From NCBI GenBank assembly GCA_015068495.1, contig SVKL01000006.1:40704-104703 (forward strand): 64,000 nt of DNA, in the 5' to 3' direction. Below the pieces are notes generated by a model. That model had not been told where the DNA came from. It was given only the letters and a program-made list of their open reading frames with translations, and made no database searches. The DNA comes from Oscillospiraceae bacterium. GTDB taxonomy: Bacteria > Bacillota > Clostridia > Oscillospirales > Oscillospiraceae. Both the position numbers and the translations under genes were made by a program. Positions 1 to 19,511 of this stretch are shown here, in pieces. Positions within the stretch are counted from its first letter, which is position 1. The number at the start of each line of letters is the position of its first letter.

Positions 1-729
1 TTCGAAGCAATCCTCCATAGTATCCCATGTCCAGTTGCCTTCCAAATAGTATTCCTTAGGTGACTTGGCACCGGCGTTTTCAAAAATTGTTCTGTTGTAG
101 TGGAACAGGCTGTTGCCGCCCCAAGGGATTTGGATTGCGTGGCTTTCGCCCTTATATTTCATCATATCCAGCCAAACAGGACCGGCAATCTTAGCCAGCT
201 GCTCGTATTCTGCTTCGGTAAAGGCTCTGGTGATACCATTGTTCGGCAAAATGGGGTATTCGTTGGAGCCCATCACAATGTCAGGCTTTTCGCCGCTGTT
301 GATTGCGCTGAGCATATCACTTACAATCGTGTCGCCTGCAAAGGTAACCTCAACTTGATTCAAGGTTGCCCACTCATCAATGGCTGCACGCATCATCCAA
401 ATATAGCTGCCTAAGCCCATATTTTCAATATCGTCAAAGACGATGCTGTCATAGCCGTAGATCTGCAGCTTCTTGCCGGCAAATTTCTCCGGGTTGATAT
501 AGGCATCATTGCTGTCTACATCATTGGTAGACAGAACCAATGTCTCTTCCTTAATGTCGGAGATATCTTCACGGATCGGAGTTGTCTCCTTGGGCTCGTC
601 GTCTTCAGTGTTGTTGTTGTTAGCACTGTTGCCGGTGGTGCCGCCAGCGGGATTCTCTGCAGTCTTTCCGCAAGCAATCAAGCCAACCACCATACACAAA
701 GCCAACAGCAATGCCAGTAGTTTTTTCAT
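1..729 (-). CDS. Extracellular solute-binding lipoprotein (SBP1), truncated by the window start
   Basis: Minus-strand reading frame open from ATG (727-729) to the window edge; translation begins MKKLLALLLALCMVVGLIACGK (signal peptide with LIAC lipobox) and closely matches the neighbouring SBP at 1086-2618. Confidence 0.85.
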   Translation of the reverse strand, partial: MKKLLALLLALCMVVGLIACGKTAENPAGGTTGNSANNNNTEDDEPKETTPIREDISDIKEETLVLSTNDVDSNDAYINPEKFAGKKLQIYGYDSIVFDDIENMGLGSYIWMMRAAIDEWATLNQVEVTFAGDTIVSDMLSAINSGEKPDIVMGSNEYPILPNNGITRAFTEAEYEQLAKIAGPVWLDMMKYKGESHAIQIPWGGNSLFHYNRTIFENAGAKSPKEYYLEGNWTWDTMEDCFE

Positions 730-795
730 AATAACGTACCTTCTTTCATTGTTTTTCAATTGCTGCAAAGAACATCAGTGCAACATTATGTCCTC

Positions 796-824
796 ATTAT
801 AGCAAAATAATCCAGTTGATTCAA
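796..824 (-). promoter_or_regulatory. Putative sigmaA promoter of SBP1 (TTGAAT-17-TATAAT)
   Basis: -35 TTGAAT (819-824), 17-bp spacer, -10 TATAAT (796-801), upstream of the SBP1 ATG. Confidence 0.6.
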
Positions 825-927
825 TATGGAATTTTGCCATTTTTACCGTTGTTTTTAAGATAAATACCAACACCGTTTTGTGCATTTTTTCATATATACG
901 GTTTTCAAAAAGGGATTATTTATTTCT

Positions 928-1003
928 GTAGGGGCGAACTGTGTTCGCCCGCCTTCCCCGCATCCGCCCCTGCGGGGCACCTTCCTCCCAAGGGGAAGGC
1001 TTA
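928..1003. repeat. Intergenic compound palindromic (REP-like) element
   Basis: Three consecutive GC-rich hairpins (gggcgaac-tgt-gttcgccc; gcccc-tgc-ggggc; ccttcc...ggaagg) in otherwise AT-rich intergenic DNA. Confidence 0.5.
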
Positions 1004-1021
1004 GCTTCTTTTATTATATAG

Positions 1022-1059
1022 AAAAGGGACGGTTGCCAAAGGGCAACCGTCCCAAAAAA
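1022..1059 (-). terminator. Rho-independent terminator of SBP2
   Basis: 12-bp stem gggacggttgcc/ggcaaccgtccc followed on the minus strand by a T-rich tract, just downstream of the SBP2 stop. Confidence 0.75.
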
Positions 1060-1085
1060 TTTACAGGATTTCAGCCAATATGCAA

Positions 1086-2618
1086 TTAGTTGGCGTACAG
1101 GCTGTTGTACTTAGCAATCCAGCCTTCCTGTGCTGCAGCCAGCAGAGGAATTGCGGATGCGGGAGGCATAGCGCTGGTATCGCCGGCTTCGGTGTTGTTA
1201 TCGCCGGGGTAACGTCTGCCGCCTCTGGCCTTTCTGGAGAAGATTTCCTTAACGGTCTTCTCGTAGCACTCCTGATCCCAGTCTTCGATTTCAGCAAAAG
1301 CTTCTCTTCTGTCTGCGCAGATGTCTGCGAAGTTTTCCTTCCAAGCCTTACTGTACTCGGAAGCGCCGCGCATACCCTCGTAGGTGCACTCGTACAGACC
1401 AACACTGAAGTCGGACATATAACGCATACCAACCTTCAGCATATAGGAGATCAGAGACATAACTGCCTCGGGCTCATCGCAGGAGGACATAATGGACATG
1501 AACTGGGTGGTGAAGCCGGTCGTAGCAGTCTCAGGGGAGAATGCAGGAACAGGAACAACTTCAATGATGTCGCCGTTGGCAATCTCTTCATACAGGTGCT
1601 CAAAGTTGTACCACTCGCAGTCGCCGGTATACATAGCGGGACGAGGTGTGGTAGCAATCTTACAGGTCTGGATGGTGTTGCCGGGGAGCACGGACAGAGT
1701 CTCATTTACGCCTCTGTATCTCATTTCCAAATATCTCTTGTACTGCTCGGAGGTGCCGATCATACCGGTCAGCTTACCGGTCTCGGGATCTTCCTCAACA
1801 CCGCAGCCTAAGCCGAAGTAAACAATGGAGCTGCAGCCATAGGTGTCTTCGCCGTCGATCTTACCGTTACCGTTCTTATCTTTGGTAACGCTCTCCATGC
1901 AGTCCTCGAAGGTATCCCAGTTCCAGTTGTCTTCCATAAAGTATTCCTTGGGAGACTTAGCACCGTAGTTCTCGAACATGGTTCTGTTGTAGTAGCAGAA
2001 GCTATTACCGGACCAAGGGAACATCATACCGTGGCACTCGCCCTTGTACTTCAGAACGTCCAGGTAGCGAGCACCGGCGATATCGGCCAGCTGCTTATAC
2101 TCATCCTCAGTGAAGCCTCTGGTGATGCCGGTGTAGAAGTACAGAGGAGCCTCCAGAACCTCCAGCATCAGGTCGGGCTTGTCGCCGGAGTTGATAGCTG
2201 CAAGAATGTCGTTGGTGTTCAGGCCGCCGTCGTAAGTAACTTCAACCTGATTGAGGGTTGCCCACTCATCAACTGCTGCACGCATCATCCACAGGAAGCT
2301 GCCCTTGCCCATATTCTCGATATCGTCGAATACGATACTGTCGCAGCCGTAAATCTGGATAGACTTACCTGCAAACTTCTCGGGGTTGATGAATTCATCG
2401 TTGCTGTCCGGAACCTTGGTTGTATCCAGACCAACGTCTGCGCCCATATCGGAAACGTCGTCACGAAGTGCGACAGTTTCTCTGGTTCCTTCTGTCTCAT
2501 CGTTTGCGTTAGCGCTGTTGCCGGTGGTGCCGCCAGCGGGATTCTCTGCAGGCTTGCCGCAAGCAATCAGGCCCACTACCATACACAGAACTAACAGTAA
2601 TGCCAGTAGTTTTTTCAT
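1086..2618 (-). CDS. Extracellular solute-binding lipoprotein (SBP2)
   Basis: 510-aa ORF, lipobox VVGLIACG, family-1-type SBP features; paralog of SBP1. Confidence 0.9.
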   Translation of the reverse strand: MKKLLALLLVLCMVVGLIACGKPAENPAGGTTGNSANANDETEGTRETVALRDDVSDMGADVGLDTTKVPDSNDEFINPEKFAGKSIQIYGCDSIVFDDIENMGKGSFLWMMRAAVDEWATLNQVEVTYDGGLNTNDILAAINSGDKPDLMLEVLEAPLYFYTGITRGFTEDEYKQLADIAGARYLDVLKYKGECHGMMFPWSGNSFCYYNRTMFENYGAKSPKEYFMEDNWNWDTFEDCMESVTKDKNGNGKIDGEDTYGCSSIVYFGLGCGVEEDPETGKLTGMIGTSEQYKRYLEMRYRGVNETLSVLPGNTIQTCKIATTPRPAMYTGDCEWYNFEHLYEEIANGDIIEVVPVPAFSPETATTGFTTQFMSIMSSCDEPEAVMSLISYMLKVGMRYMSDFSVGLYECTYEGMRGASEYSKAWKENFADICADRREAFAEIEDWDQECYEKTVKEIFSRKARGGRRYPGDNNTEAGDTSAMPPASAIPLLAAAQEGWIAKYNSLYAN

Positions 2619-2714
2619 CGCTTTTACTCCTTCTTATTATTTTATTTGAAAATTGCCAATTGCAGTGTGCTTTTGCACACTACAATTGTAGCAAATTTCA
2701 TATACAGTATGCAA

Positions 2715-2746
2715 TATCAAATTTATCACTTTTGTTAAATTTGATA
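2715..2746. promoter_or_regulatory. Inverted repeat abutting a putative SBP2 promoter
   Basis: TATCAAATTTA-10 nt-TAAATTTGATA, perfect 11-bp arms; adjacent minus-strand -35 TTGCAT (2709-2714) and 18-bp-spaced TACAAT. Confidence 0.45.
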
Positions 2747-2812
2747 ACCGAGGTTTTGGCGTGTATGTGCAAAGTGTACAATCGTCTCTGCCAATACACA
2801 GCATATTGCACA

Positions 2813-3769
2813 TTAGCCCTTGCTGCCGGAACGGTCCATACATTCCACAAAGAACTTCTGGCAGAAGATGAACACAGCAACCAACGGCAAAACAGCCAAC
2901 AGCAAAATGGAGTAGTACTCAACCTCCATCCGCATTGCAGAAAGCTGGTTAGCACCAACACGCAGGGCAATCAAGCTTTCCACCTCAACCATCAAGGGTC
3001 TGCCCATATTAAGGTTAGACATACCGGTAACCAAGGAATCGTTCCAGTAATAGATGGTAGACAGCAGAATAACCGTAACCAAAACAGGGATAATGTTGGG
3101 GAGCATAACCTTCCAGTAGATCTTAAAGGGGCTGCAGCCATCCAGCTTTGCAGCTTCCTCCAAGTCCTTGGACATACCGGCAAAGAACTGCCGGAACAGG
3201 AAGATGAAGATACCGGACTTCAAGCCTACGCCGAAAACAGCCGGAATCAGGAAGCTTCCCAAGTTGGGCAGCAGGTTTACAGTCAAATCCTTGCCGGTAA
3301 ACAAGCCCACCAGCTTACCGATGCCGAAGAAATCGAACCAACGGTAGTAATAGGTCAGAGGGATTTGTGCGGTCTGGATAGGCATAATGATGGTAAACAG
3401 CACAGCTGCATACACAAGGTTGCTGCCCTTAAACTTATATCTGCCCAAGCCATAGCCCACCAAGGAGCAAATGAACACGGAAACAATGGTGCTGGTAAAG
3501 GTAATCAAAATGGTCACCTTTGCCGGCTTCCAAAAGGGGAAATATGCTTGGCTGTTCTTAAAGTTTTCAAAGGTGGGTCTTGGAGGGACAAAGCCGGAGT
3601 TTCCTGCGAAGTAGTCCTCTGGCATTGTCAGAGAAGCGGACAGCATCTTGATGATGGGAAACAGCGCAACATAGCTGATACCCAAGAGCAAAATGTACCG
3701 GAACAGCTTATACAGGAAAGAGCCAATGGGGGAAAGCATATTTTTATTCAATAATGTATTCGGTGACAT
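2813..3769 (-). CDS. Carbohydrate ABC transporter permease (MalG/AraQ type)
   Basis: Multi-TM protein with EAAKLDGCSPFKIYWKVMLP EAA motif; start placed at MSPNTLL, preceded by a GGGAGGAG SD. Confidence 0.9.
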   Translation of the reverse strand: MSPNTLLNKNMLSPIGSFLYKLFRYILLLGISYVALFPIIKMLSASLTMPEDYFAGNSGFVPPRPTFENFKNSQAYFPFWKPAKVTILITFTSTIVSVFICSLVGYGLGRYKFKGSNLVYAAVLFTIIMPIQTAQIPLTYYYRWFDFFGIGKLVGLFTGKDLTVNLLPNLGSFLIPAVFGVGLKSGIFIFLFRQFFAGMSKDLEEAAKLDGCSPFKIYWKVMLPNIIPVLVTVILLSTIYYWNDSLVTGMSNLNMGRPLMVEVESLIALRVGANQLSAMRMEVEYYSILLLAVLPLVAVFIFCQKFFVECMDRSGSKG

Positions 3770-3788
3770 GAATATCCTCTCCTCCCTC

Positions 3789-4688
3789 TTAATCCAATGT
3801 AATAACTTTTCTGGAAACAATCGCATTGACAATCAATACCACCGCAAAAATCAACACTGCGTATGCCCAGCTTTGGGTACAGGCATAGTCCAAGCGGTTA
3901 ATCATATTCGTGTCAATCAGCTGAACAATGGGGTTGGTACTGGTGTTGAAGTAGTCGATAATCGAATAAATCAAGCACAGCAGGATGCTGGGGGTCAGCA
4001 GCGGGAAAGTGATTTTCCAGAAGGTCTCCCACTTGGTTGCACCCTCCATCTTTGCCACCTCATACAGCTGGCTGGGAATTGCCTGCAAGCCAATGATGAA
4101 AATGATAATCTGCAGCGCGGTGTTCCAAACTAAGTTAAACAACGTGCCCGCATAGACCGTGAATTTTTCTATCAGTGGCGTGAGCACACCGAAGCTTTGG
4201 ATGATGTCATTCACAAAGCCGGTCATTTCGCCGGACAGGGTGATAAATGCGTTGCCGCTTTCCTTCATTTCGGATGAGCCGCCAAGGCTGTTAAACGCAG
4301 CCATAATGGGTGCTGCACCGAAAATCATAGGCAGGAACAGGGATGTACGGAAGAACAGACGGCCGGGGAATTTATCAACCAGCAAAACTGCCAAGAAGAT
4401 ACTGATGAACATAATCACGAGGATTTGAACCAGCATCTCAGAGGACATAGTAATCAGCTTCTTGATGAATTCCGCATCATCGTTGGCCATATATCTCCAG
4501 TTTTCAAAGCCGATGGGTGTCAGAAGCAGGCCGTCGCTGCCAACGGTAACTCTGTGGAAGGTATAGTTCAAAGATTCCAGCAGAGGCTTCATAAACAGCC
4601 ATATGAAACCGATAATGAAGGGTAACACAAACAGCAGACCGGTCTTATCGGTAGGGGTCAATAATGTGCGTTTTTTTGTTTTCTTCAT
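3789..4688 (-). CDS. Sugar ABC transporter permease (MalF/UgpA type)
   Basis: Multi-TM, EVAKMEGATKWETFWKITFPLL EAA motif; overlaps the next gene by 4 nt. Confidence 0.9.
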   Translation of the reverse strand: MKKTKKRTLLTPTDKTGLLFVLPFIIGFIWLFMKPLLESLNYTFHRVTVGSDGLLLTPIGFENWRYMANDDAEFIKKLITMSSEMLVQILVIMFISIFLAVLLVDKFPGRLFFRTSLFLPMIFGAAPIMAAFNSLGGSSEMKESGNAFITLSGEMTGFVNDIIQSFGVLTPLIEKFTVYAGTLFNLVWNTALQIIIFIIGLQAIPSQLYEVAKMEGATKWETFWKITFPLLTPSILLCLIYSIIDYFNTSTNPIVQLIDTNMINRLDYACTQSWAYAVLIFAVVLIVNAIVSRKVITLD

Positions 4689-7021
4689 TTTGCACCTCCG
4701 GTAACGACCAGATAACTTCTTGCGGCTACTTCCTTACCGCCGTATGTGTAGGGATCTTCGCCATAGTTTACAATCACTTCACCGGATTCGTACGCTGTCA
4801 AGGTGACATCCTCTTCCAGATATTCGTGATTCAGAATCTCCTTGCCTGCAAACTGGCTTACTGCCTCTTGCATTGCAAGATACTCTTCAACAACTGTATT
4901 CTTCCAGTAATCGTAGGAATAAGAAACCATTGTATTATAATCTGTGCCAACCAGCTGGGAAACGTCGCCGTAAATCAGATTGAATTTCAGATTCGTACCG
5001 GTTTCCAAAGCCTTCAGGAAAGCGTACTCATAGTCCACAGTGGTGTTGATGCCGTTTGCAGTTACCAAGGAATTGCCTTGGAAGACCAGCTGATAGAAGG
5101 GAACGCTTTGGTCCTGCATATCAAAGCTACTGTTGCAATCGGACACATCCGTCATCACATCGGCATAAGCCATCGCGTAGGCATTGCCGCCGTGGAGCAT
5201 CAGATACTGGGTCTTCTCATCCACAGTCTTCAGAGTCTGTTTCCACAGATCCAAAACCTGTGTCTTGGTGATGAGGTTTTCGTCCTTGGAGTAGTCGGAG
5301 TACAAGATTTCACCCAATCTTGCCAAGGAAATCTGGTTTACGTTCCACTTTGCTGCAGAATCTGCAAACATAGCAGATACTTCAGAAGCCAACTGGGGAC
5401 GCAGCAGGTGCCAACGGCTGTCCTTAATTTGTGTGCCCAAGTCCAAATTGTACTTGTATTGGAAAGCATAGCCGTCAAAGAAGGTCTTGACGCTGTCGCC
5501 GTTTTCTGTGTAGCCGTTGCCGTTTTCATACAAGTCCACAGGGTTGGATTCCAAGAACAGCAGAACACCCTGCTCCTCCAGATAAGAAATCATATTCTTA
5601 AATTCTTTCTTGGAGCCCAAGACCGATTCGTTGGAAACCTCATTATAAATTTTATTGTTTAAGCCGCTGTCCAACGCGCCTGCGTAATTAATAATCAAAT
5701 TCTCAACACCTTGAGACTTTAATTCCTTAACAATTTCGCATACATCGTTGTAGGTGGTCAGCGCCGTAACCACAGGACGCTTCACGCCCATTACGTACTT
5801 CTTGATGCTGACTGCGCCAATCAGATCCAGAACCATATACTTCTTATCTGCCAGCTCGGAGTCCTTCAGCTGATCGGTCTCCTGCAGATATGTTCTGTAA
5901 CGGTTACTCATACCGGTGTAGTTAGCCTCATCGCCATTGAGGAAGAAGTAACGTACAGCATAATTCTTGCCGTGGGTCAAATCCTCACTGTAGTCAATAG
6001 TATAGCTGTCTACACGGGAAATGTGACTACCTTCCTTAAACAGGATGCTGTACTCACGCAGAACTGCGCTGGCGTACACGTGGTTATAGGAGCTATCCTT
6101 CTTGCTGGTGGAGGCAGCAATTGCGCTGCAGCCCTCACCGGAGGTAATTACGCCCAAAAACGCGTGGTCATTGGTCTTTGCGCCGAAGACGGGCAAAGTC
6201 ACTTTCTGCTGAACAGTCCCCTGCTCCTTCTTTTCCAAGGTAGGATTCTCGCCGTATACATCTGCGTAATAAGCTTGCTTGGTTTGCTTATTATTATTGT
6301 ACTCAATCAGAGCGCCGGAGCCATCGGGCACCAGCAGATAGCCCTCATCCTCAAGGCCGCCGGCACCAAAGTAAGGCAGCAGGGCAATTTCTTCAACCAT
6401 ATAGGGGTTGCTGCCCACACCCTTAATCTCACTGGTTACAATCTCCGCTTGGAAGCCGTCCTCAGTAAGGGTGTACTGCACAGGGATATACACATTGGCT
6501 GTGGGGAAGCCAAAGGTAAATTTAATGCCGTTGTCGATGAGCTCGTGGGTCATTCTGCCCTTTTTAATACTGCCGCCAAAGTTATCAAAATCAACGAAAA
6601 TACCCTTTTCCATATTGATAAACTTTACGATAATCTGGCTGTTCAGCTGGGACATCATCGTCACATATTTATCTTCGCTCCGGTCTTGGGGGTTGGAATA
6701 CCACTTCATACCGGAAGCTTTTTCCGTCACGCAAATTTCACCGGTGGTAAAATCTGCTTCCAGAATCAGATCAGAATTCTCAGCAACCTTATTAAAGCCG
6801 GCCTCGCCGTAGTTTGCCTTTTTGTTGCTGATTTTCTCGTCACTCTGTTCCTGATTGGCTGCCAGTGCCCGCGCCACATCGTCCCGATAGATATTGTAAG
6901 CAGCGTAGCCTACCACAGCTACCAGCGCCACTATCAGCGAAATGCTGATTACACGGGTAATCGTTTCTCTTCTTTTCCGGATTGCCCGCTTCCATTTCCA
7001 AAATACTTCTTTTATGTTCAT
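4685..7021 (-). CDS. DUF5696-like membrane-anchored protein (candidate glycoside-hydrolase-like fold)
   Basis: About 778 aa; one N-terminal TM helix, beta-rich N-terminal region, central alpha/beta repeat region, C-terminal beta region with VNYGEDPYTYGG. Start at MNIKEVF chosen from SD spacing; upstream ATGs also possible (up to 7042). Confidence 0.7.
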   Translation of the reverse strand: MNIKEVFWKWKRAIRKRRETITRVISISLIVALVAVVGYAAYNIYRDDVARALAANQEQSDEKISNKKANYGEAGFNKVAENSDLILEADFTTGEICVTEKASGMKWYSNPQDRSEDKYVTMMSQLNSQIIVKFINMEKGIFVDFDNFGGSIKKGRMTHELIDNGIKFTFGFPTANVYIPVQYTLTEDGFQAEIVTSEIKGVGSNPYMVEEIALLPYFGAGGLEDEGYLLVPDGSGALIEYNNNKQTKQAYYADVYGENPTLEKKEQGTVQQKVTLPVFGAKTNDHAFLGVITSGEGCSAIAASTSKKDSSYNHVYASAVLREYSILFKEGSHISRVDSYTIDYSEDLTHGKNYAVRYFFLNGDEANYTGMSNRYRTYLQETDQLKDSELADKKYMVLDLIGAVSIKKYVMGVKRPVVTALTTYNDVCEIVKELKSQGVENLIINYAGALDSGLNNKIYNEVSNESVLGSKKEFKNMISYLEEQGVLLFLESNPVDLYENGNGYTENGDSVKTFFDGYAFQYKYNLDLGTQIKDSRWHLLRPQLASEVSAMFADSAAKWNVNQISLARLGEILYSDYSKDENLITKTQVLDLWKQTLKTVDEKTQYLMLHGGNAYAMAYADVMTDVSDCNSSFDMQDQSVPFYQLVFQGNSLVTANGINTTVDYEYAFLKALETGTNLKFNLIYGDVSQLVGTDYNTMVSYSYDYWKNTVVEEYLAMQEAVSQFAGKEILNHEYLEEDVTLTAYESGEVIVNYGEDPYTYGGKEVAARSYLVVTGGAK

Positions 7022-7047
7022 TTTATTCTCCATTCCATGCAAATCGA

Positions 7048-7680
7048 TTAATATCTAAGCTCGAAAATAACTGTAACTACAAAGTAATACAGCTGCTCAA
7101 ACAAAATCAACAGCATTAATACAATAAAGAACATGATTATCAGGCAAACAATCGTCAAAGCAATGGCATATATGGTCTTCGCAAATGAATACTCGTGCAT
7201 TTCCTGCAGACCGCTGAAAGCAATAATTGCGCCCCAAATCTGGGAAACTGTTACTGCATAGGTCAGGAACACTTGCTCGTCACCTGCTAATACCAAGCTA
7301 AGCAATGTGGTTATAAACCGAACAATGATATAGGGAACCAAAGCATTGGCCGCAACCACACAGATATCCTTCAGCTTGCCCTTGCCTTCCATCAGTGTAC
7401 ACATACACCAGTTGGACAGACAAACCATCACGAACATCAAGACGGTAACCATAGCGGTACGCAGCAAGCTTGTGTCAGCTGCCTTAAACTGGTTCATATC
7501 ATAGTCTGTTGCCACACGGTAAAACAGCTCAACGAAAAGCCAGAGAATTACGGTGATCAGCACCACAGCAGTAGAGCCCTTCTTATTCGCTCTTAACTCC
7601 AAGAATCCGTCTCTCGGATGCTTGCAGATATAAAACGGATATGCGTAGGGGCTCATTGTATCAAATCCTGTACGTTTCAT
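7048..7680 (-). CDS. YIP1-like multi-TM membrane protein
   Basis: 210 aa with about 5 hydrophobic segments; YIP1-like arrangement; abuts flanking genes. Confidence 0.7.
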   Translation of the reverse strand: MKRTGFDTMSPYAYPFYICKHPRDGFLELRANKKGSTAVVLITVILWLFVELFYRVATDYDMNQFKAADTSLLRTAMVTVLMFVMVCLSNWCMCTLMEGKGKLKDICVVAANALVPYIIVRFITTLLSLVLAGDEQVFLTYAVTVSQIWGAIIAFSGLQEMHEYSFAKTIYAIALTIVCLIIMFFIVLMLLILFEQLYYFVVTVIFELRY

Positions 7681-9161
7681 TACTTATCACCCCTCCGTTT
7701 CTTTATGCTCCAAAATACATTTGCTGTAATATCGATTATCTTTTCATAGCCCAAAATGCCAATCAAAAGAATCACTACAACAGCTGCTACCAATGCAAAG
7801 TTCTTACGAACCTTCTCATCACGCAAGGCAGCCTTCGCTTCGCCGTAGCCAGCCTGGTCCTTGCCAAGCTCAAAGTACTCCATAGCCTTTTCATATTCGC
7901 CCATACTCATATAGGCCTTACCCAGACCTTTATAAGCTTGGGTGTAGTTAGCATTCATTCTGAGCACTTCCATCCAAGGCTCAATGGATTCCTGATACAA
8001 GCCCTGATTATACAGATAGTTTGCAGACCGAATCATCTTGCCGTAGAATGTTTGCTCCATCACTGTAACGGTATTTTTGCCGGAGTCCAGCACCAACAGG
8101 CTGTTGTTGCTGTCGGATTCCAAGGAAACAGGCTGGGAGAACAGGCCTTCCTGATAACCCATACCGCCAAAAACAGCCAGCAGATTACAACCCTCGTCAT
8201 ACTGGAACAGGTGACCGGATGTAATATCCACAATGGTAAAGGCGCCTTCGTTATCCACGGTGATATCCGTCAGAACCGTACCCTTAATCTTACGCTCCTT
8301 GGTAAGTGTAAACAAATCGACGCTTTGCGGGAAAACGTTGTTACCCAAAGCGTTCAGCTTGGAGATCGGGGTAGCTACAGATTCCACCAAGGGAGACACC
8401 GTATAAACGAATCTGTCCTCGGACCAGAACAAGTTATTAAATTCCACGGGCTGGAAGCTCACCTGCGACTGAGCATTTGCCGCATCAGACAAGATGCTAC
8501 GCCAGAAGTGCTCCATCTGCATTGCAGCTGTCATTTTCAGCTTGTTGGTACCGTAGAAGCCTAAGAAGTTATTTGCGCTGTCCACCAGCAATGCGCCGGT
8601 GTTGATATTACCGGATGTAATATACATAATGCCCATATTATCCACGATAATCTTCTTGGGCTTGTAGGGAACTGTGGGATCCAAAAGCTCGTCAACAGGC
8701 TTATCATAGATCTTTTTCACATTGCCTTCCAAGTCAGACACCAAAACACGGTTGTTTTCTGTGTCCGCAATGTACAGGCACTGGTTCTCTTCACGATAGA
8801 ACAGACCCTGTGCACCCGCTGCAAGAGTGGTGGGCTGACCTTCATAGGTAAAGTCCTTCAGTTCCTTGATACAATGATAGTCTTTATCCAGAACAAGCAC
8901 ACGGCAGTTGCCGGCATCCAAGATATAAGTCTGATCATTGTTATCCACAAAAATGTCTCTGGGGTCACTCATCGGTGTGACACCCATAAGGGTTTCATCA
9001 ATAACGACTTTCACCTGATACGCGTTTGTAGACGGTACCGGCTGATTTTCCTCGTACGTGTAAGTCCTGTCAGGCTGGGCAGCGCAAACCGCCATTGCTG
9101 AGGAAGTCAGTATGAGTATCACAGCCAATATCAGGCATCCTAATTTTTTTCTCATATACAC
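7680..9161 (-). CDS. Secreted NHL/beta-propeller plus TPR protein with C-terminal TM anchor
   Basis: Signal peptide; propeller-like blades (DPRDIFVDNNDQTYILDAGNCRVLVLD, CLYIADTENNRVLVSDLEGN); TPR (YTQAYKGLGKAYMSMGEYEKAMEYFELG); C-terminal TM and KKRR tail. Confidence 0.8.
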   Translation of the reverse strand: MYMRKKLGCLILAVILILTSSAMAVCAAQPDRTYTYEENQPVPSTNAYQVKVVIDETLMGVTPMSDPRDIFVDNNDQTYILDAGNCRVLVLDKDYHCIKELKDFTYEGQPTTLAAGAQGLFYREENQCLYIADTENNRVLVSDLEGNVKKIYDKPVDELLDPTVPYKPKKIIVDNMGIMYITSGNINTGALLVDSANNFLGFYGTNKLKMTAAMQMEHFWRSILSDAANAQSQVSFQPVEFNNLFWSEDRFVYTVSPLVESVATPISKLNALGNNVFPQSVDLFTLTKERKIKGTVLTDITVDNEGAFTIVDITSGHLFQYDEGCNLLAVFGGMGYQEGLFSQPVSLESDSNNSLLVLDSGKNTVTVMEQTFYGKMIRSANYLYNQGLYQESIEPWMEVLRMNANYTQAYKGLGKAYMSMGEYEKAMEYFELGKDQAGYGEAKAALRDEKVRKNFALVAAVVVILLIGILGYEKIIDITANVFWSIKKRRGDK

Positions 9162-9188
9162 ACCTCACTTCAATGTCATTCCGGTGTT

Positions 9189-10049
9189 TTAATCCTTAAT
9201 GCCAGAGTGAGCCATCGTCTGGAGCATCTTGCTCTGAGTCAGAATGAAGGACACAATGGGAGGGATCATCAAAAGCACACCGGCTGCGGCTGTTGCGCCG
9301 GTACGGGCGATACCGCCTGCGCTAATCTGGCTCAGTGCGGTGGGAAGCAGCTTCAGCTCTTCCTTAAAGACTACGCCTGCAGAGCCTGCATTCCAAACGC
9401 TGGTAAAGGAAAGCACCATAACCGTCATCCACGCGGGCTTTACGTTGGGCATAATCACATTCATAAAGATAACAAAGTCATTTGCGCCGTCCAGCTTTGC
9501 TGCATCCAACAGAGAATCCGGAATCTGCAGCATAAACTGACGCAGCAGGAACATATGCAGAGTGGATGCAAGGCTGGGCAGAATCAGAACCCAGTAGGTA
9601 TTGATGAGGCCAAGCTTTGCCTTCACGATGTAGGAAGGCAATGCTGTAACACCGCCGGAGAACAGCAGCGTCAGCATAATCAGTCTCCACAGCATATCCT
9701 TGCCGGGGAATTTCTTCTTTGCGAAGGGGTACGCAGCCATAGCGCCAATGAGAACGCCACAACCGGTACTGGTAATACTAACAAAGATACTGTTAAACAG
9801 GTATCTGGAGAAAGGAACCGTCAGGTCGGAAACCAACTGGAACAGTTGAGAATAGTTACCGAACGTGGGGTTTACTGCGTAAAAACGCGGCGGGAAGATA
9901 AACAGCTCTTCAACCGGCTTAATAGACTGAATGATGTTATAATACAGCGGCAAGCCCATAAAGATGCCAACCAGTACCAGCATAAGAAAGACTAAAAAGT
10001 TGCCGAAGTGAGAGCGATTCAATTGTTTGTGTATACGTATTATTTTCAT
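9189..10049 (-). CDS. Carbohydrate ABC transporter permease (AraQ/LplC type)
   Basis: DAAKLDGANDFVIFMNVIMPNVKPA EAA motif; SD aggagagag before ATG at 10049. Confidence 0.9.
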   Translation of the reverse strand: MKIIRIHKQLNRSHFGNFLVFLMLVLVGIFMGLPLYYNIIQSIKPVEELFIFPPRFYAVNPTFGNYSQLFQLVSDLTVPFSRYLFNSIFVSITSTGCGVLIGAMAAYPFAKKKFPGKDMLWRLIMLTLLFSGGVTALPSYIVKAKLGLINTYWVLILPSLASTLHMFLLRQFMLQIPDSLLDAAKLDGANDFVIFMNVIMPNVKPAWMTVMVLSFTSVWNAGSAGVVFKEELKLLPTALSQISAGGIARTGATAAAGVLLMIPPIVSFILTQSKMLQTMAHSGIKD

Positions 10050-10059
10050 AATCTCTCTC

Positions 10060-10974
10060 CTAATCTTCAACCAGTACCTTGTTGATAACCTTATTTACAA
10101 TCAGCATCACCAGCAGAAGCACGGTACTGATTGCACAGGCGTAACCCAGCTCATACCGAACTCCGCCGTAGTCATCAATGTGGTTGATAATCGTATGGGT
10201 AGCATAGTCAACAGAGGGGTTACCGCAAAGAGCAGCGGGAACTGCGCCGACTGCAAAGGAGCTGGAAATCTGCATAACAGCACCGAACAGCAGCTGCGGC
10301 TTCATCTGAGGCAGGGTCAGGAACCAAATTTCCTGGAATCTGTTGTGCACGCCGTCAATTGCGCCGGCTTCATACAGGGTGGTATCCACGGTCTTAAAGC
10401 CTGCCAGGAAGGACAGGAAGCTGGTACCCAAGCTCAGCCACAGCTGAACGATAATACAGCAAACCAGCATATAGTCTGTATCCTGCAGCCACAAAATGGG
10501 GGCATCGATAAAGCCCAGCTTCATCAGAAGACCGTTGAGCAAGCCGTAACGGTCAGCGCTGAGGATGTAGGTCCAAATAACGTAGACACTACCTGAAATA
10601 GAAGGCGCATAGAATATCAAGGTCATAACAGAACGGACCTTATTGGGCAATTCGTTAATAAACCATGCGAAGATAAAGCAAGCTATGTAGCCAACAGGAC
10701 CGGTGATAAACGCCATTATCATCGTATTTCTGACGGCGATAATAAACACGTCATCATTCAAAAACAGGGTTTTGTAGTTATCGAACCCGACAAAGTTGGG
10801 TGTTTGCAGCATATTGAAGTCAGTAAAGCTCAAAACAATTGCCGCAACAACGGGAATCACTGTAAAGATAAAAAACGCAATCAGGAATGGAGCAATCATA
10901 AAGTAGCTGGAGCGTTCCCTATACATACTCTTGACTGTCGTTTTTAGTCTGTAGGGTTTTTTCGTACGACTCAT
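10060..10974 (-). CDS. Sugar ABC transporter permease (LplB type)
   Basis: Multi-TM, EAGAIDGVHNRFQEIWFLTLPQ EAA motif; start at M1 (10983) or M4 (10974). Confidence 0.9.
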   Translation of the reverse strand: MSRTKKPYRLKTTVKSMYRERSSYFMIAPFLIAFFIFTVIPVVAAIVLSFTDFNMLQTPNFVGFDNYKTLFLNDDVFIIAVRNTMIMAFITGPVGYIACFIFAWFINELPNKVRSVMTLIFYAPSISGSVYVIWTYILSADRYGLLNGLLMKLGFIDAPILWLQDTDYMLVCCIIVQLWLSLGTSFLSFLAGFKTVDTTLYEAGAIDGVHNRFQEIWFLTLPQMKPQLLFGAVMQISSSFAVGAVPAALCGNPSVDYATHTIINHIDDYGGVRYELGYACAISTVLLLVMLIVNKVINKVLVED

Positions 10975-11022
10975 CACTTTCACCTTTCAAAATAATCTTA
11001 ATTATTTTTTAGAATTCATTCC

Positions 11023-13884
11023 TCAGTTATTCTTAAAGAACTCGTTTCTCTTTCTAAGGATTTCATCATTGATTTTGATTGTCCATTCTGTCAGCATCTC
11101 TCGTGCGTTAGCGCCGTCGTCAATAACACCACGAATGGAGTTGGTAAGACCTCTGGTCACGTAGTAGTTGCCGGGAACAATGGGGATAAACTCCAACCAG
11201 TCCAGCTGCTGTTCCAAAACAGACAGCTCCTTGTTGGTCCATCCCTGAGAACGCAAGGTTTGGATATTTGCTGTGGTATATCTTGCTGAAATACCCAGCG
11301 CTGCTTCCACGTCGTTTGCGTATCTGGTCTGTGCCTCTGCACGGGACCACCAATCGATAAATGCCCAAGCTGCATCCTTATCCTCTGCGCCGCTGAGCAT
11401 CACCGCACCGCTACCGGTATTATCCATCTGTGTACGGTCGATTGTGCCGTCTTCCTTCAGTGTACCGGGTGTCAGATAGATGTCCCACAAGCCACTGATT
11501 TCAGGTGCAGTATATTTTAAGGTAGTATAAACGCTGTAAGCAGCAATACCAATGGGCATTTCACCGGTTCTGAAACGGTTAGCCATATCAAATACCTGGG
11601 GGAAACCGTACTTTGTATAGAACTCTGTGTGCTGAATCAATGCTTCAACTGCTACGTCTTCGTCGAACTCAACTTCTGTCATATCCTCGTTGAAGTAGGA
11701 GCCGCCCTTCTGATACAGCAGGTTTGCAAAGGAAGCGGCAGTACCCAAGGACATATTGTATCTCTGGAGCACCTGCGCTACATCGTACATATCGTCCCAA
11801 GTCTGAGGAACCTCAAGGCCCATACTTTCGAAGATATCCGTTCTCACGAACATAACCGTACAGCCGTGGGTATTGGGCATACCGTAGTATCTGCCCTCCA
11901 GCATAAAGGGAATTTCGGAACCTTCTACGTACTCATCCAGAATTTCCCAGTAGGTATCAAAGGAAGACAGGTCAACTGCGGCGCCACGCAACGCCAGGTT
12001 CACAACCATATCGGAGGTCACACCAACCATAACATCCGGGCCGGTGCCTGCCGCCAAGGCGTTCACCAAGGAGCCTTGCGCCAACTCCAAATCCACGTGG
12101 ATACCGGTCTTGGGAGTGAACTCGTCAGTGATCATATTCTTCATAATCTCAAACTGATCAATACCGGAGTTGATCCACACGCGGATTGTTTTTGCCTCTT
12201 CATCCTTCTCATAATCCTTCTTTGCGAAGGAGGAGAAGAAGCTTCTTACCTGATATACGATCCATTCCCAAGCGTTCAAGTTTGTCTTGGGCAAAGACTG
12301 ATCGGCAGAAAGCAAAGCAATGAAGTCCAGATCCAAAGCCTGTTCCTGATATGTAGAAAGCTTTGCGCTCAAGCCGTTGATATCGTTTTTGAAGTTTGTA
12401 AGTCTTTCCTTATAGGTCAGGTCGGTAATGTTGTCTGCATAGCTCTGCAGGTTGTAGGCAACATCTTCAAAATAAGCATTTTCTGCACCCTTGGCGCCAA
12501 CGGTTTCCTCCAAGCGCTCAGCCTCTTGGAACAGGAGGTCTGCATTCTTGCGGAAATCCTCGGGCAGGTTGGGCAGAAGTCTATCCAGATAGTAGTCACG
12601 GTAGGGGTCCGGGCTGCTACTGGTAATCATAACGATGGACAGATAAATATCATTCAGGTTGGCAATTACCGCCTGCAGAACACCCATAGTGTCCGTCAGG
12701 TCACCAATTACGTTCTCCATCGTGATGATATGCTCACCCTTGGTCAGGTAAATGCTGTAAGGTCCGCTTTCACCGCCGAGAAGCAAATTCTTCCACTGGC
12801 TGGTGTAGTTAAAGCGCACAGCGCTCAGTTCTTCAAAGGGAACTACGCCGTCAATGTACACCTTACGGGAGCTGAACAAGCCGTCCAGATAACCCTGCTT
12901 ATACTTACAGCCAAGATTGTAGAAGCCGTCCTCCGGCACATCAATCTTCCAGCTGATCCACTGACCGGGCTGCTTCCACTGGCTGCCGCCGCCGTAGTTG
13001 ATCTTTACATTGCTGTATTCAAACGGCTGGGTCAGAGGGCTGCTCTTATCCGCATCCGGCCAAAGTGTGGAGCTGGATTGCTGATAATAGTTCTCTGCCT
13101 GGAACAATTCCAGCACACCCTCGGTTTCCTTGTAACCCTTTTGCTGATACAGGGAAATGTAATCCTGATAGGACATCAGATAGGGCTCCTGCTTGAAGGT
13201 CAATCCCTGCAGCAGCAGAGGTGTGCCGTCAAAGCGAAGTGCGATTTTATGCACGCCGGCTTCCATATAGAACTTCAGGTTGCCGTAAACACCGGTCTGG
13301 TCGTACAGGAACTGCTTTCTCCACTGAGGTGTCTGGCTGGACTGGGGACGCAAGTCATCGCCGCTTTCGTCCTCTCGGATGGGATCGTTCTTGTAAACAC
13401 GGGTCAGCACACAGCCGTTTGCCTCGGTGAAGGGAAGCTCTCCATCGATGTACAAACCGAACAGGTACTGGCTGCTGCTAACTGCCAGAGGGAAGTAATC
13501 CAATTCGATGCAGTACAGACCGCTCTCAGGAATTGTTACGGTAAATTCCACCTGCTCACCCTTGGCATCAATATAGACACCTTTCTCGGAGCCTTCCATA
13601 TTCTCATATGCCTTGGTACCGGAAGCTTCTGTGCTGCCCTCCGGCTCAATCACCTGAAAATCTGCAATGTCCACAGCCGCCTCGTGGTCGGGCTTAATTG
13701 CATTCTGGTGCTTCTCCATATAGTAGTAGTAGGTGTTTGTGTTGTTGCTGTTTTCGGTGTCGTAAACCCAGTCGTTATTCTGCGTTTCGCCCTCAGCTGC
13801 ATCAACCTGCACCATAGCCACAGGGGCACAGAGCAGGCTTGCAACCAGCAAGACAACAATCCATTTCTTCATCTTCTGCATCAT
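11023..13884 (-). CDS. Large extracellular solute-binding protein with N-terminal carbohydrate-binding-like modules
   Basis: 953 aa; signal peptide without clear lipobox; two beta-sandwich-like segments, helical linker, then family-1 SBP domain (KTIRVWINSGIDQFEIMKNMITDEFTPKTGIHVDLE). Confidence 0.85.
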   Translation of the reverse strand: MMQKMKKWIVVLLVASLLCAPVAMVQVDAAEGETQNNDWVYDTENSNNTNTYYYYMEKHQNAIKPDHEAAVDIADFQVIEPEGSTEASGTKAYENMEGSEKGVYIDAKGEQVEFTVTIPESGLYCIELDYFPLAVSSSQYLFGLYIDGELPFTEANGCVLTRVYKNDPIREDESGDDLRPQSSQTPQWRKQFLYDQTGVYGNLKFYMEAGVHKIALRFDGTPLLLQGLTFKQEPYLMSYQDYISLYQQKGYKETEGVLELFQAENYYQQSSSTLWPDADKSSPLTQPFEYSNVKINYGGGSQWKQPGQWISWKIDVPEDGFYNLGCKYKQGYLDGLFSSRKVYIDGVVPFEELSAVRFNYTSQWKNLLLGGESGPYSIYLTKGEHIITMENVIGDLTDTMGVLQAVIANLNDIYLSIVMITSSSPDPYRDYYLDRLLPNLPEDFRKNADLLFQEAERLEETVGAKGAENAYFEDVAYNLQSYADNITDLTYKERLTNFKNDINGLSAKLSTYQEQALDLDFIALLSADQSLPKTNLNAWEWIVYQVRSFFSSFAKKDYEKDEEAKTIRVWINSGIDQFEIMKNMITDEFTPKTGIHVDLELAQGSLVNALAAGTGPDVMVGVTSDMVVNLALRGAAVDLSSFDTYWEILDEYVEGSEIPFMLEGRYYGMPNTHGCTVMFVRTDIFESMGLEVPQTWDDMYDVAQVLQRYNMSLGTAASFANLLYQKGGSYFNEDMTEVEFDEDVAVEALIQHTEFYTKYGFPQVFDMANRFRTGEMPIGIAAYSVYTTLKYTAPEISGLWDIYLTPGTLKEDGTIDRTQMDNTGSGAVMLSGAEDKDAAWAFIDWWSRAEAQTRYANDVEAALGISARYTTANIQTLRSQGWTNKELSVLEQQLDWLEFIPIVPGNYYVTRGLTNSIRGVIDDGANAREMLTEWTIKINDEILRKRNEFFKNN

Positions 13885-15695
13885 TTCGTTTCTTCACTCC
13901 TATTAAAATTTCTGCACGGAAAAGTCAGTACAACACGAACACTGGCCTCGGTTTCCGTTTCGTTCTCCGGCCCGTTGCTATGAATGCTCACGCCATAATT
14001 CTTTCCATATATCAGTTTAATCCGTTCATTTACGTTACGCAGGCCAACCTTGTTTTCCTCAAAGCCTGCACCGGTTTTTAGCTTCTTGTTTAATGCATCT
14101 AAATCCTTTTGGTTTATGCTTTGCCCATCATCCTCCACGGAAATATACAGGCATTCCTCTTTATAATAAGCGGAAATCGTAATATTGCCCCGATAGTTCT
14201 TTGGTCTTAAGCCGTGCTGAATCGCGTTTTCCACAATCGGCTGCAAACACATTTTAATTAAGGTGCAATCATAAAGACTTTCGTCGATATTCCAATGGAA
14301 TGTAATAGAATCGCCGAAGCGTATACCAACAATTTCAATATAAAGCTTCAGGAATTCTATTTCTTCTTTTAAGGTGATGATTACATCGTCGTTTTCCAGT
14401 CCCATTCGATACAAACGGGCAACCTTTGTAAGCATCTTGCTGGTTTTATTGCCAAGCCCTATCTCTTCCACTGCATTCCACTTGATGGTTTCCAGTGTGT
14501 TATAGAGAAAATGGGGATCAATCTGAAACTGCAGGGCTCTGAACTGGGCCTGCCGCAGAGCTCGGATTCGTTCCTCCAGATTTTCGGGGGGTTCCTCATT
14601 CTCTGCTCTGTCAGCCAAAATATTGCTGGTGATATACAGCAGCTCATTAGACGGCTTTGAAGCCTCTGTCTCATCCCAATGCAGCTGCGGGTTTTGAATT
14701 ACGCTAATAATCTTCTTAACAGGGCGGTAAGTAAGAACTGTGATGAGGTATGCCACAATAATACTGGAAACCACACCCACAATCACACCGGACAGCAAGA
14801 AGCCGCGAACCACAGCGTTTTCCTCTTTGTAGTCCGGCATTTGCGTGACGTATGCGTAGCGCCAGCTCTTGTGGACAGATTCCATCACCGATACGATTCT
14901 ATTACCGTGCGCCTCAACAATCCGCGTCTGGCCGATTTCTGAGCCGGCTATATCGGATTCATATTCGCGGCAACGGGCTTCATCCCATTTCGCATAGTCC
15001 TGCTCGTTGCAATAAATCGTCTGACCGCTGATATCTGTTATGAAAAAGATACCGTGCTGAGAGGTATCCTGACTCTCAAGAAGGTCACGAAGCTTCTGAA
15101 GCTCCACATCCAATACAAGCAAGCCGGATCTCTGTCCTTTGGCAGACCAAATAGGCTGACAGACAAAAATGCTGTCTGTTTGATTCACCAAAATATACGG
15201 GTAAAACATTGGCTCGTGCTTATAAAGGTCGTACCACTTGCCTATCTCCCATACCTGATCGATATGCTGGGCGCCACTGCTGTCTATCAGCATATCGTTA
15301 ACATCGGAATAGATATAGGTAGAAGTAACAAAATTATTTGACATTGCGTGGGTCTCTATCAGTTTGACCACTTCCGCCACGGTTTTGTGGTACGCAGTAT
15401 CCGTTTCCAAGGTCTGCACAGCATCCACAACCGCTTCCTGCCGGGACATCTTGTCCAAGGTATCCAGCAGACCTTCTATGGTGTTATCGGTCACCACTGC
15501 GTTTTTTTGCAGCAGCTCCTCATTCGTATCCATAATCCGATTGTTAACCACGTTTTGAAACTTACTGTAGTTCAAGCTCAGCACCAGCAGCAATGGCAAG
15601 GTGACAAGTATGAACACATACGCAAAGTTTTTTAGAAACAACCGGTTGAACTTGTAGCCTTTAATATAGGGCCACGCTGTTTTTTGTCCATCCAT
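13881..15695 (-). CDS. yesM: Sensor histidine kinase, YesM family
   Basis: Extracellular sensor region between TMs, ALQFQIDPHFLYNTLETIKW (His_kinase motif), HATPase motif PIVENAIQHGL. Confidence 0.9.
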   Translation of the reverse strand: MDGQKTAWPYIKGYKFNRLFLKNFAYVFILVTLPLLLVLSLNYSKFQNVVNNRIMDTNEELLQKNAVVTDNTIEGLLDTLDKMSRQEAVVDAVQTLETDTAYHKTVAEVVKLIETHAMSNNFVTSTYIYSDVNDMLIDSSGAQHIDQVWEIGKWYDLYKHEPMFYPYILVNQTDSIFVCQPIWSAKGQRSGLLVLDVELQKLRDLLESQDTSQHGIFFITDISGQTIYCNEQDYAKWDEARCREYESDIAGSEIGQTRIVEAHGNRIVSVMESVHKSWRYAYVTQMPDYKEENAVVRGFLLSGVIVGVVSSIIVAYLITVLTYRPVKKIISVIQNPQLHWDETEASKPSNELLYITSNILADRAENEEPPENLEERIRALRQAQFRALQFQIDPHFLYNTLETIKWNAVEEIGLGNKTSKMLTKVARLYRMGLENDDVIITLKEEIEFLKLYIEIVGIRFGDSITFHWNIDESLYDCTLIKMCLQPIVENAIQHGLRPKNYRGNITISAYYKEECLYISVEDDGQSINQKDLDALNKKLKTGAGFEENKVGLRNVNERIKLIYGKNYGVSIHSNGPENETETEASVRVVLTFPCRNFNRSEETK

Positions 15696-17242
15696 TACAG
15701 CGATATCCTCTGGCAGTACTCTCTGGGAGAGTAGCCTGTGTATTTCTTAAACATAACAGAGAAATAGGAAGAGGAGCTGTAGCCTACCATTCCGGCAATT
15801 TCTCCTATCTTGTTCCGTCTTTCCTTCAGAAGCTGCGCCGCACGTTCAATTTTTATGCGGAACAGATATTCTGATAAGGTTTCGCCCATTTCCTGCTTGA
15901 AGAGTCTGCTTAAGTAACCGGGATGAATCCGGTATTTGGCAGCCAGAGCATCGTGGCCGATGTCCTCATCCAAATGGGCATCCAAATACTGCACAATTCG
16001 CTCAATTACGTTATGCTCGCTGTGATACTTTCTGCTTGCCAAACCGTCACACAGGGCAAAAAAGTCTTCTTTCAGGCAAGCGGCAACCGTTTCGGCATCC
16101 TTTGCCCGATACAGGTGGCTGAAGTTGAATTTACCGTCTGTGATGTTCCAGACATTCACCTTACGCTTTTTGTAATTCAGCTCAATTGCAGAATACAGGT
16201 TTTTGAATATAAACCGCATATCCTCCAGCGCAGTACCGTCCAAATCCTGTACCATACCGTTGAGGATATGTGCAAGTGTCTCTTTGCTACCCAAGTCCAA
16301 TTCCACAATCAGAAGCTTGTAGTCGGATACCACAGACTGGCACAGTGCTTCGTCCATCTGCTGCACGGTCACAGCCGTGTTTTTTGTGGGGGTCAGCAGG
16401 TCGGTAATGTGCATTACGCTATGGGTCAAGCGGAAGGTGAACTCATAGGGAAGCTCCTCGTTCAGCGACCCTACCAATAGGCGGATTTTCTCGTTGCAAT
16501 ACCTTCTGAATTCAGCACTGTCTGTCTGAGGCAATCCTACAAAAGCAACGTTCCACTGCTCCGGCCGCTCCTCGGCATAAAAAACCAAGGGCTCTTTGTC
16601 GGCGCCGGAAAGGCAGTCTCTGAGCATATCTTCCAAGGAGGCAACGTCAATTCCCTGCTGGTCTTGCGCAGGAGACCTTGCCTTGATTTCAAAGGCAATC
16701 AGTTGGGAATCCTGGGTTATGCGCTCCATTCCCAAAAGCTTTATGTAAGCGCTAAGCTCACCGTCGGATGCAACACAGCCTGACAGCAGATCCCGAACAA
16801 AGCTCTTCTGCAGGATTTGCTTCAGCTCGCGGGTATCAGACTCAGCCACAGTGTGCTCAGCCTGCTCGCAATCCAGCTGTTCCTTGATGCCCTTAAACAC
16901 ATCAATCAGCTCGTCCTCGTCCACAGGCTTTACCAGATAGTGGACGACTTGGTATTGAATTGCCTGCTGTGCGTAGGAAAAGGCGCTGTGTCCGCTTAGG
17001 ATGACTACCTTTATCTGCGGACGCGTTTCGTGGAGATTGCGAATCATTTCCAATCCGCTCATACGGCTCATCAAAATATCGGTGAGCACAGCGTCGCAGG
17101 GATTGTCCCGTAAATACGCAAGGGCATCCGAGCCATCGCTAAAAGTATTGACTACCTGAAAGCCGATTTTCTCCCACGGAATAAAGCACTCCAAACTATG
17201 TCTGATGTTATCCTCGTCTTCAACAATCACTAGCTTGTACAC
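15695..17242 (-). CDS. yesN: Response regulator with AraC-type HTH, YesN family
   Basis: REC domain (VEDEDNIRHSLE, VLTDILMSRMSGLEMI) and C-terminal AraC HTH; GTG start at 17242 with SD GGGGTGA preferred over the upstream ATG at 17272. Confidence 0.88.
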   Translation of the reverse strand: MYKLVIVEDEDNIRHSLECFIPWEKIGFQVVNTFSDGSDALAYLRDNPCDAVLTDILMSRMSGLEMIRNLHETRPQIKVVILSGHSAFSYAQQAIQYQVVHYLVKPVDEDELIDVFKGIKEQLDCEQAEHTVAESDTRELKQILQKSFVRDLLSGCVASDGELSAYIKLLGMERITQDSQLIAFEIKARSPAQDQQGIDVASLEDMLRDCLSGADKEPLVFYAEERPEQWNVAFVGLPQTDSAEFRRYCNEKIRLLVGSLNEELPYEFTFRLTHSVMHITDLLTPTKNTAVTVQQMDEALCQSVVSDYKLLIVELDLGSKETLAHILNGMVQDLDGTALEDMRFIFKNLYSAIELNYKKRKVNVWNITDGKFNFSHLYRAKDAETVAACLKEDFFALCDGLASRKYHSEHNVIERIVQYLDAHLDEDIGHDALAAKYRIHPGYLSRLFKQEMGETLSEYLFRIKIERAAQLLKERRNKIGEIAGMVGYSSSSYFSVMFKKYTGYSPREYCQRISL

Positions 17243-17345
17243 TGCTTCACCCCATCTATCTATCTTGAACAAAACAACGCAGATTTGCCCGGCTTCAGTT
17301 TGTCTGTTTTACATAGGTCCATACTCTGACCCAGTATACACATAG

Positions 17346-17374
17346 ATTATACGTCAAAAAGCAAAATAATACAA
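17346..17374 (-). promoter_or_regulatory. Putative sigmaA promoter of the yesN-led operon (TTGTAT-17-TATAAT)
   Basis: -35 17369-17374, -10 17346-17351. Confidence 0.5.
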
Positions 17375-17491
17375 GGTTACTCTCTTCACTTTTTTTAATT
17401 TTATGAACTTTTTTTTACTAAGACGCCTTAAAATTATTCGTCAATTTACACAAAACTGATTACAAAGAGAAACAAGTATCCGTTTTCTCTA

Positions 17492-19462: not shown

Positions 19463-19511
19463 ATTGTTTCCTCCTTATATGGACTTGGACAGTCTTCTGC
19501 TTATTCTACGG

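Follow-up and report, generated by a model that had tools for sequence, protein, structure and literature searches.

Gene content of the cluster

We analyzed a 64,000-nucleotide stretch of DNA from an Oscillospiraceae bacterium (positions 40,704 to 104,703 of contig SVKL01000006.1, assembly GCA_015068495.1), which we will call the window. Positions 1 to 17272 of the window hold a cluster of twelve minus-strand genes, including those for two ATP-binding cassette (ABC) importers and for three membrane-attached proteins (a beta-propeller protein, a Yip1-domain protein, and a DUF5696 protein). A first-pass annotation, made from the sequence alone, had described a twelve-gene cluster with many overlapping or abutting start and stop codons, and we recovered all of the genes with the families that it gave. 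On balance, we favor the view that these genes are a copy of a glycan-import cassette conserved in Bacillota, in which a non-hydrolytic capture assembly is combined with two importers of the CUT1 class. The source is a draft genome of 1.77 Mb (93% complete; G000 in our set), and the cluster lies on its contig C18.

The core of the cluster is eight genes, which we give in the order of transcription with their best Pfam matches. The first encodes a solute-binding protein (SBP) of 953 amino acids, SBP953, with a signal or anchor segment, two beta-sandwiches that resemble carbohydrate-binding modules (CBMs) of family CBM35, a helical bundle, and a CUT1 solute-binding domain (11023..13884; SBP_bac_1, E = 2e-22). 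Next are an LplB-type CUT1 permease (10060..10983; BPD_transp_1, E = 5e-8) and an AraQ/YtcP-type CUT1 permease (9189..10070; BPD_transp_1, E = 3e-12), both with an EAA loop. These are followed by PROP, an exported NHL beta-propeller with TPRs and a C-terminal transmembrane (TM) helix (7680..9161; NHL, E = 1e-8, and TPR_1, E = 2e-7); YIP1, a Yip1-domain membrane protein with five TM segments (7048..7680; Yip1, E = 9e-15); and DUF5696, an extracytoplasmic protein with an N-terminal TM anchor and the fold of glycoside hydrolase family 129 (GH129) (4685..7042; PF18952, E = 1e-159). The last two are a MalF-type CUT1 permease (3789..4688; BPD_transp_1, E = 2e-5, slightly under the cutoff; EAA loop EVAKMEGATKWETFWKITFP) and a MalG-type CUT1 permease (2813..3832; BPD_transp_1, E = 3e-15; EAA loop EAAKLDGCSPFKIYWKVMLP). 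Downstream lies SBP2, a solute-binding lipoprotein that is probably the partner of MalF-MalG (1086..2618; SBP_bac_8, E = 9e-8). The LplB/AraQ, PROP/YIP1, DUF5696/MalF, and MalF/MalG pairs overlap, as do YesN/YesM and YesM/SBP953 at the upstream end of the cluster, and there are gaps of 5-39 bp at SBP953/LplB, AraQ/PROP, and YIP1/DUF5696.

In the AlphaFold 2 model of SBP953 (pLDDT 88), the beta-sandwiches span residues ~69-231 and 258-392 and precede the helical bundle and the CUT1 binding domain. The assignment of these modules (residues 69-392, at 12709..13680) draws on the secondary structure of the model, on a profile match of the second sandwich to the CBM35 region of 5x7g (E = 2.4e-9), and on homologs, 8 of 48 of which contain CBM_35; the window's SBP953 itself has no Pfam CBM match. 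The finding of two CBM35-like beta-sandwiches in SBP953 is new here. According to Foldseek, its SBP domain resembles those of oligosaccharide-binding SBPs, including the beta-1,2-glucooligosaccharide protein Lin1841. The closest solved SBP to SBP2 gave no substrate clue.

The cluster encodes what we expect of CUT1 importers, namely SBP_bac_1/8 proteins (SBP953, SBP2, and SBP1) and four permeases; we rejected an exporter role because binding proteins and CUT1 permeases indicate import. All four permeases have the EAA loop, including MalF despite its sub-cutoff score, and the loop is present in 68 of 68 LplB homologs and 64 of 65 AraQ homologs. The EAA loop is needed for coupling to an ATPase. 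As the first-pass annotation had noted, no ATPase gene lies within the cluster. Elsewhere in this genome, a MalK/MsmX-type ATPase (OB_MalK, 54 bits) is represented by a fragment, its final ~177 codons, at one end of contig C3. In Paenibacillus cellulosilyticus, a ugpC gene is directly upstream of the cassette. (In this plasmid copy, L128 at NZ_CP054609.1, 6987-28610, LLM flavin oxidoreductases and extra SBPs are found downstream, which suggests a non-typical substrate.) CUT1 importers that use a shared ATPase (MsmX, UgpC, or MsmK), such as Athe_0595-0598 with MsmK (PMC12838199), also have an SBP, two EAA-loop permeases, and an ATPase that is encoded elsewhere. Unlike them, the cassette combines two importers in a single operon, has the propeller, YIP1, and a GH129-fold protein as obligate partners, and includes one SBP with two CBM35-like modules.

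Conservation and genomic context of the cassette

We searched for DUF5696 (PF18952, E <= 0.001) in 60 relatives, 293 class-level genomes, and 300 phylum-level genomes. Matches were found in 23, 89, and 38 genomes, respectively, and in 20, 75, and 34 genomes they exceeded the Pfam cutoff. (The weak matches take in GH129-like and other proteins.) The 74 loci that we mapped were drawn from the surroundings of DUF5696 genes (stretches of at most 20 kb) and from named loci of Butyrivibrio, Gracilibacillus, B. fibrisolvens, and Paenibacillus cellulosilyticus. A scan of genome contigs with a single protein yielded two relatives only.

The exact order SBP953-LplB-AraQ-PROP-YIP1-DUF5696-MalF-MalG is kept in 59 of the 74 mapped loci, which are from Bacillota (Clostridia and Bacilli), so we rejected chance clustering. 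Most of the other 15 loci have the blocks SBP953-LplB-AraQ and PROP-YIP1-DUF5696-MalF-MalG in swapped positions, are fragmented, or lie near contig ends. The second block is unbroken in nearly all of the loci; the exceptions are L073, which is near a contig end, and L079, which has MalF-MalG upstream. The median gap between DUF5696 and MalF is -4 bp, and PROP and YIP1 form a single polypeptide in 38 of 74 loci. In a sample of 118 genomes, all 25 genomes with a strong match to PROP have a strong match to DUF5696 as well; full-length propeller genes were seen in no sampled genome without DUF5696. The proteins also diverge in step. Pairwise distances correlate at 0.91 for PROP-DUF5696, 0.88 for DUF5696-MalF, 0.79 for DUF5696-SBP953, and 0.54 for DUF5696-LplB (permutation maxima for the pairs tested were 0.13-0.21). 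The correlations among PROP, DUF5696, MalF, and MalG are 0.86-0.91, and those with LplB/AraQ are lower, at 0.53-0.64. The first-pass annotation had proposed that these genes form one joint system and that a lack of synteny between DUF5696, YIP1, or the propeller and the permeases in relatives would argue against this. Instead, they are syntenic, and the idea of a joint system is strongly supported by genomics.

PROP and YIP1 themselves are assigned by fold and family. PROP has profile matches to NHL propellers and TPRs in the PDB, and a TM scan placed its C-terminal helix at about residues 450-480. YIP1 matches Pfam Yip1 (PF04893) with 55.4 bits, as compared to a cutoff of 28.6. In a literature search limited to open-licence papers, we found none on DUF5696 or on the combination of YIP1, NHL, and an ABC transporter.

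Upstream of SBP953 in the window are yesM (13881..15695), which encodes a sensor histidine kinase with dCache, His_kinase (E = 2e-22), and HATPase domains, and yesN (15695..17272), which encodes a YesN-type response regulator with a receiver (Response_reg, E = 1e-24) and an AraC helix-turn-helix (HTH_18, E = 2e-20). The dCache_1 match of YesM (5e-9) is under the curated Pfam cutoff. Control by YesMN had been suggested earlier, and the genes do adjoin the cassette in the window, but YesM/YesN homologs are adjacent to it in only a minority of the mapped loci. YesN/YesM is a local regulator and is outside the conserved cassette.

Homologs of SBP2 are found downstream of MalG in many relatives. 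Two loci (L110 and L114) have four to five tandem SBP2-like genes after MalG, which is a local expansion of binding proteins. Another locus, L126 (G563:C3, 12920-17091), lies beside Omp85/POTRA genes, so the cassette is also present in a diderm lineage of Bacillota. Several open reading frames of the cassette are fragmented in L095 (G223:C1), and DUF5696 is split in L088 (G090:C1); both genomes also have intact copies.

The genes flanking 87 proteins encode GH10, GH3, GH5, GH9, GH26, GH130, GH30, GH35, alpha-L-fucosidase, and rhamnosidase; further flanking genes encode GH43-CBM6, GH106, the beta-1,2-oligoglucan phosphorylase-like SOGP, GH42, and again GH35. Besides the xylan enzymes described next, enzymes of the types that act on mannan, cellulose, beta-1,2-glucan, or galactan neighbor the cassette. 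Given these varied hydrolases, the cassette is not tied to one polymer and looks generic.

One such context is known from Caldicellulosiruptor. The xylan degradation locus (XDL) of C. bescii, also called Anaerocellum bescii (Athe_0174-0185), has the order xloEFG-X-GH129-axoFGE-xynF-xynE-xynD-xyn10A-xynX-xynB (PMC8579813, Table 3). Two genomes in our set, G572 and G473, carry the cassette, and downstream of it in G572 are GH43, a 699-amino-acid CBM-CBM-GH10 protein, GH39, GH10, an esterase, GH39, and GH10. This order of hydrolases matches the XDL of C. bescii and C. saccharolyticus, with XynF, XynE (700 amino acids, 2xCBM22-GH10), and the rest (PMC8579813, PMC5658599). By this match in gene content, X is the PROP-YIP1 fusion and "GH129" is DUF5696, and we think that the head of the XDL and the cassette are almost certainly the same. 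Both have the order SBP-permease-permease-X-GH129-permease-permease-SBP, and both have two CUT1 transporters and no local ATPase. In the available portions of the XDL paper, X is uncharacterized and the GH129 gene is taken as a glycosidase (PMC8579813). Fourteen XDL genes are under one operator of the LacI-type regulator XynR, which is bound in vitro (PMC12285236), and the genes of the XynR regulon rise on xylan (PMC8579813). For a locus whose head is almost certainly this cassette, then, xylan-induced expression as a single regulon has been published, which supports co-regulation of the genes. The window's copy differs from the XDL in having no adjacent hydrolase and in having its own YesMN. 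The XynR operator described for C. bescii did not turn up in front of the loci that we fetched, so we identify G572 by its hydrolase order. (We rejected the cello-oligosaccharide locus Athe_0595-0598 as a counterpart, as the excerpts of its description that are available include no GH129 or X genes.) Together, the plant-polysaccharide hydrolases and the xylan locus bear out the link to glycan uptake that had been drawn from the window alone.

The GH129-like fold of DUF5696

The DUF5696 protein matches PF18952 with 533 bits (gathering cutoff 25.6). Its AlphaFold 2 model (pLDDT 88.9) and the fold matches indicate a beta-sandwich, a TIM barrel, and a C-terminal beta domain. The top Foldseek matches were the 3,6-anhydro-D-galactosidase DagB (5OPQ, E = 3.1e-31) and the GH129 alpha-N-acetylgalactosaminidase NagBb (5WZN, E = 8.6e-26), followed by GH101 and GH36. 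The relationship is apparent in the sequence as well, from a profile-to-sequence search (E = 2.5e-15 for NagBb and 5.7e-10 for DagB) and from hhalign against GH129 (probability 100%). Pfam's Glyco_hydro_129 (PF11308) had no match in the window's DUF5696 up to E = 1.

The catalytic Asp/Glu of GH129 (D435 and E478 of NagBb) are invariant in 16 of 16 GH129 relatives. The equivalent of D435 in DagB is Asp486 (PMC5698469). Among 93 non-redundant DUF5696 proteins, none has acids at both of the aligned columns, and just 18 have acids at both positions if a tolerant window is used. The acid/base window is acidic in 33 of the 93, which is a background level (43rd percentile). In the window's DUF5696, A574-R575 and H617-G618 occupy the two catalytic columns, and neither is an acid. 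DUF5696 is probably not a hydrolase with the GH129 mechanism. The GH129 fold and the loss of the catalytic pair are new here, and they alter two earlier proposals. The first-pass annotation had reported no known glycosidase in the cluster, which must be qualified, as DUF5696 is a relative of GH129 by both fold and sequence. Its suggestion that DUF5696 may have the hydrolytic role is not borne out, given the lost pair. Also, the protein annotated as "GH129" in the xylan operon of Caldicellulosiruptor probably does not hydrolyze by the GH129 mechanism, so a GH129-based prediction of substrate (mucin GalNAc) for DUF5696 proteins would mislead.

Loci L129-L138 encode clostridial GH129-like proteins of 561-619 amino acids, with a weak match to DUF5696 and with both catalytic acids. 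These are probable active relatives of DUF5696 and a useful control.

Most members of DUF5696 have a hydrophobic segment at the N-terminus and some have a lipobox, which places the barrel outside the membrane. Besides lacking the conserved pair, DUF5696 proteins differ from NagBb and DagB in being membrane-anchored, signal-peptide-bearing, or lipoproteins, and in being linked to ABC importers.

A proposed mechanism and its alternatives

We propose that oligosaccharides are imported by LplB-AraQ, with SBP953 as its binding protein, and by MalF-MalG, with SBP2 or SBP1 in that role, and that both importers are powered by a common MsmX/UgpC-type ATPase from elsewhere in the genome. PROP-YIP1 and DUF5696 would dock on MalF-MalG and form a membrane-anchored, non-hydrolytic platform at the cell surface. 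This platform would grip either long chains of glycan or the oligosaccharides that secreted hydrolases, as separate enzymes, produce, with DUF5696 as a putative glycan-binding component. Most SBP953 proteins have no lipobox (a lipobox-like motif is present in only 6 of 72), and the platform may retain them; SBP953 would add CBM-type binding and deliver to LplB-AraQ. Substrate would then pass from the platform to both of the binding-protein/permease systems.

Some observations weigh against this proposal. No hydrolase gene is adjacent to the cluster in the window, and the fetched stretches of seven loci (L113, L115, L116, L141, and L143-L145) did not include SBP953-LplB-AraQ, so that block may be dispensable or encoded elsewhere. 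G572 appears to be a Caldicellulosiruptor as judged from its gene content and hydrolase order. An acid stands in the nucleophile column in 36 of the 93 DUF5696 proteins, and a gap close to this column makes its alignment no more than moderately certain. D240, D266, and E680 are conserved in DUF5696, and the region of D266 aligns loosely with Asp202 of DagB, an essential residue that is contributed by the other subunit (PMC5698469). The loss of the GH129 pair may therefore leave room for other chemistry. Of the alternatives, then, the leading one is that DUF5696 has activity, as a membrane-anchored glycosidase or another glycan-converting enzyme, and trims oligosaccharides before import using residues other than those of GH129. 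The three-domain fold, the GH129 label in the C. bescii operon (PMC8579813), the 18 of 93 proteins that could place acids near both positions, and the use of four acids, one from a partner subunit, by the GH129-like DagB (PMC5698469) are all consistent with this. We nevertheless consider it unlikely. The catalytic acids that are invariant in GH129 are not conserved in DUF5696, and the background frequency of acids in the acid/base window points the same way. The barrel has a single near-invariant acid, E680; in the model it sits at a helix end, on the face that would be opposite to the active site. A single glycosidase is also unlikely to serve loci for xylan, mannan, glucan, galactan, and rhamnan.

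Somewhat less likely still is that the operon only co-regulates two CUT1 importers of the ordinary kind and that propeller-YIP1 and DUF5696 have a separate job in the envelope, with no contact with the transporters. In favor of this, the divergence of LplB-AraQ tracks that of the other proteins less closely, and some loci have the two blocks exchanged or apart. In contrast, the near-constant association of PROP-YIP1-DUF5696 with MalF-MalG, the absence of a strong PROP match from any sampled genome without DUF5696, and the high correlations among PROP, DUF5696, MalF, and MalG argue against it.

It is quite improbable that propeller-YIP1-DUF5696 senses glycans and signals the state of the transporter or its ligand to YesM-type kinases: although yesM and yesN overlap the operon in the window and binding proteins can sense in other systems, most mapped loci have no YesM/YesN homolog beside the cassette, and XynR is of a cytoplasmic repressor type (PMC12285236). 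CuaD has been discussed in connection with sensing by binding proteins (PMC12838199).

How Bacillota without an outer membrane keep partly degraded polysaccharide for import is poorly understood, and the capture-and-import cassette would be a concrete and testable machine for this. It has three unstudied but obligate parts and is present in many genera of Clostridia, in Bacilli, and in apparent Caldicellulosiruptor. In Bacteroidota, SusCD and surface glycan-binding proteins couple non-catalytic binding of glycans at the surface to import, with the enzymes encoded alongside. The likeness to the cassette is by analogy and lies in the proposed logic of capture and import. The cassette has ABC importers of the cytoplasmic membrane, with no TonB-dependent transporter and no SusD fold, and there were no homologs of the TonB-dependent SusC or of SusD among the annotated genes of the cluster. 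We tentatively suggest, as a possibility that we hold with less conviction than the cassette itself, a largely undescribed monoderm counterpart of Sus-type systems. In it, two ABC importers would be in a stable complex with a propeller-TPR-YIP1 membrane scaffold and with a GH129-fold protein that is catalytically dead, and this machine would be reused with different hydrolases for many polysaccharides.

At the downstream end of the cluster is SBP1, a paralog of SBP2 (phmmer E = 2.5e-221 with full-length SBP1). The window's copy (1..768; SBP_bac_1, E = 4e-6) is partial; the full-length protein, read beyond the window edge on contig C18, has 526 amino acids. Between SBP2 and SBP1, consensus matches indicate a terminator-like hairpin (1026..1053, minus strand; 12-bp stem with 9 G-C pairs and a T-rich tail) and a promoter-like site (796..824, minus strand), so SBP1 may be partly uncoupled, as a duplicate of SBP2 that is possibly expressed on its own. 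Beyond SBP1 are CobW-like, MgsA-like, SpoIIGA-like, sigma factor, and Rex-like genes, and because these are unrelated, we place the end of the cluster at SBP1. No Rfam elements were found in positions 1-20000 of the window. Upstream of yesN is a gene for an MsbA-like exporter (17492-19462). Farther away, an 819-amino-acid protein with an alkaline phosphatase domain is encoded on the plus strand (58268-60727), in a region that is otherwise mostly minus-strand.

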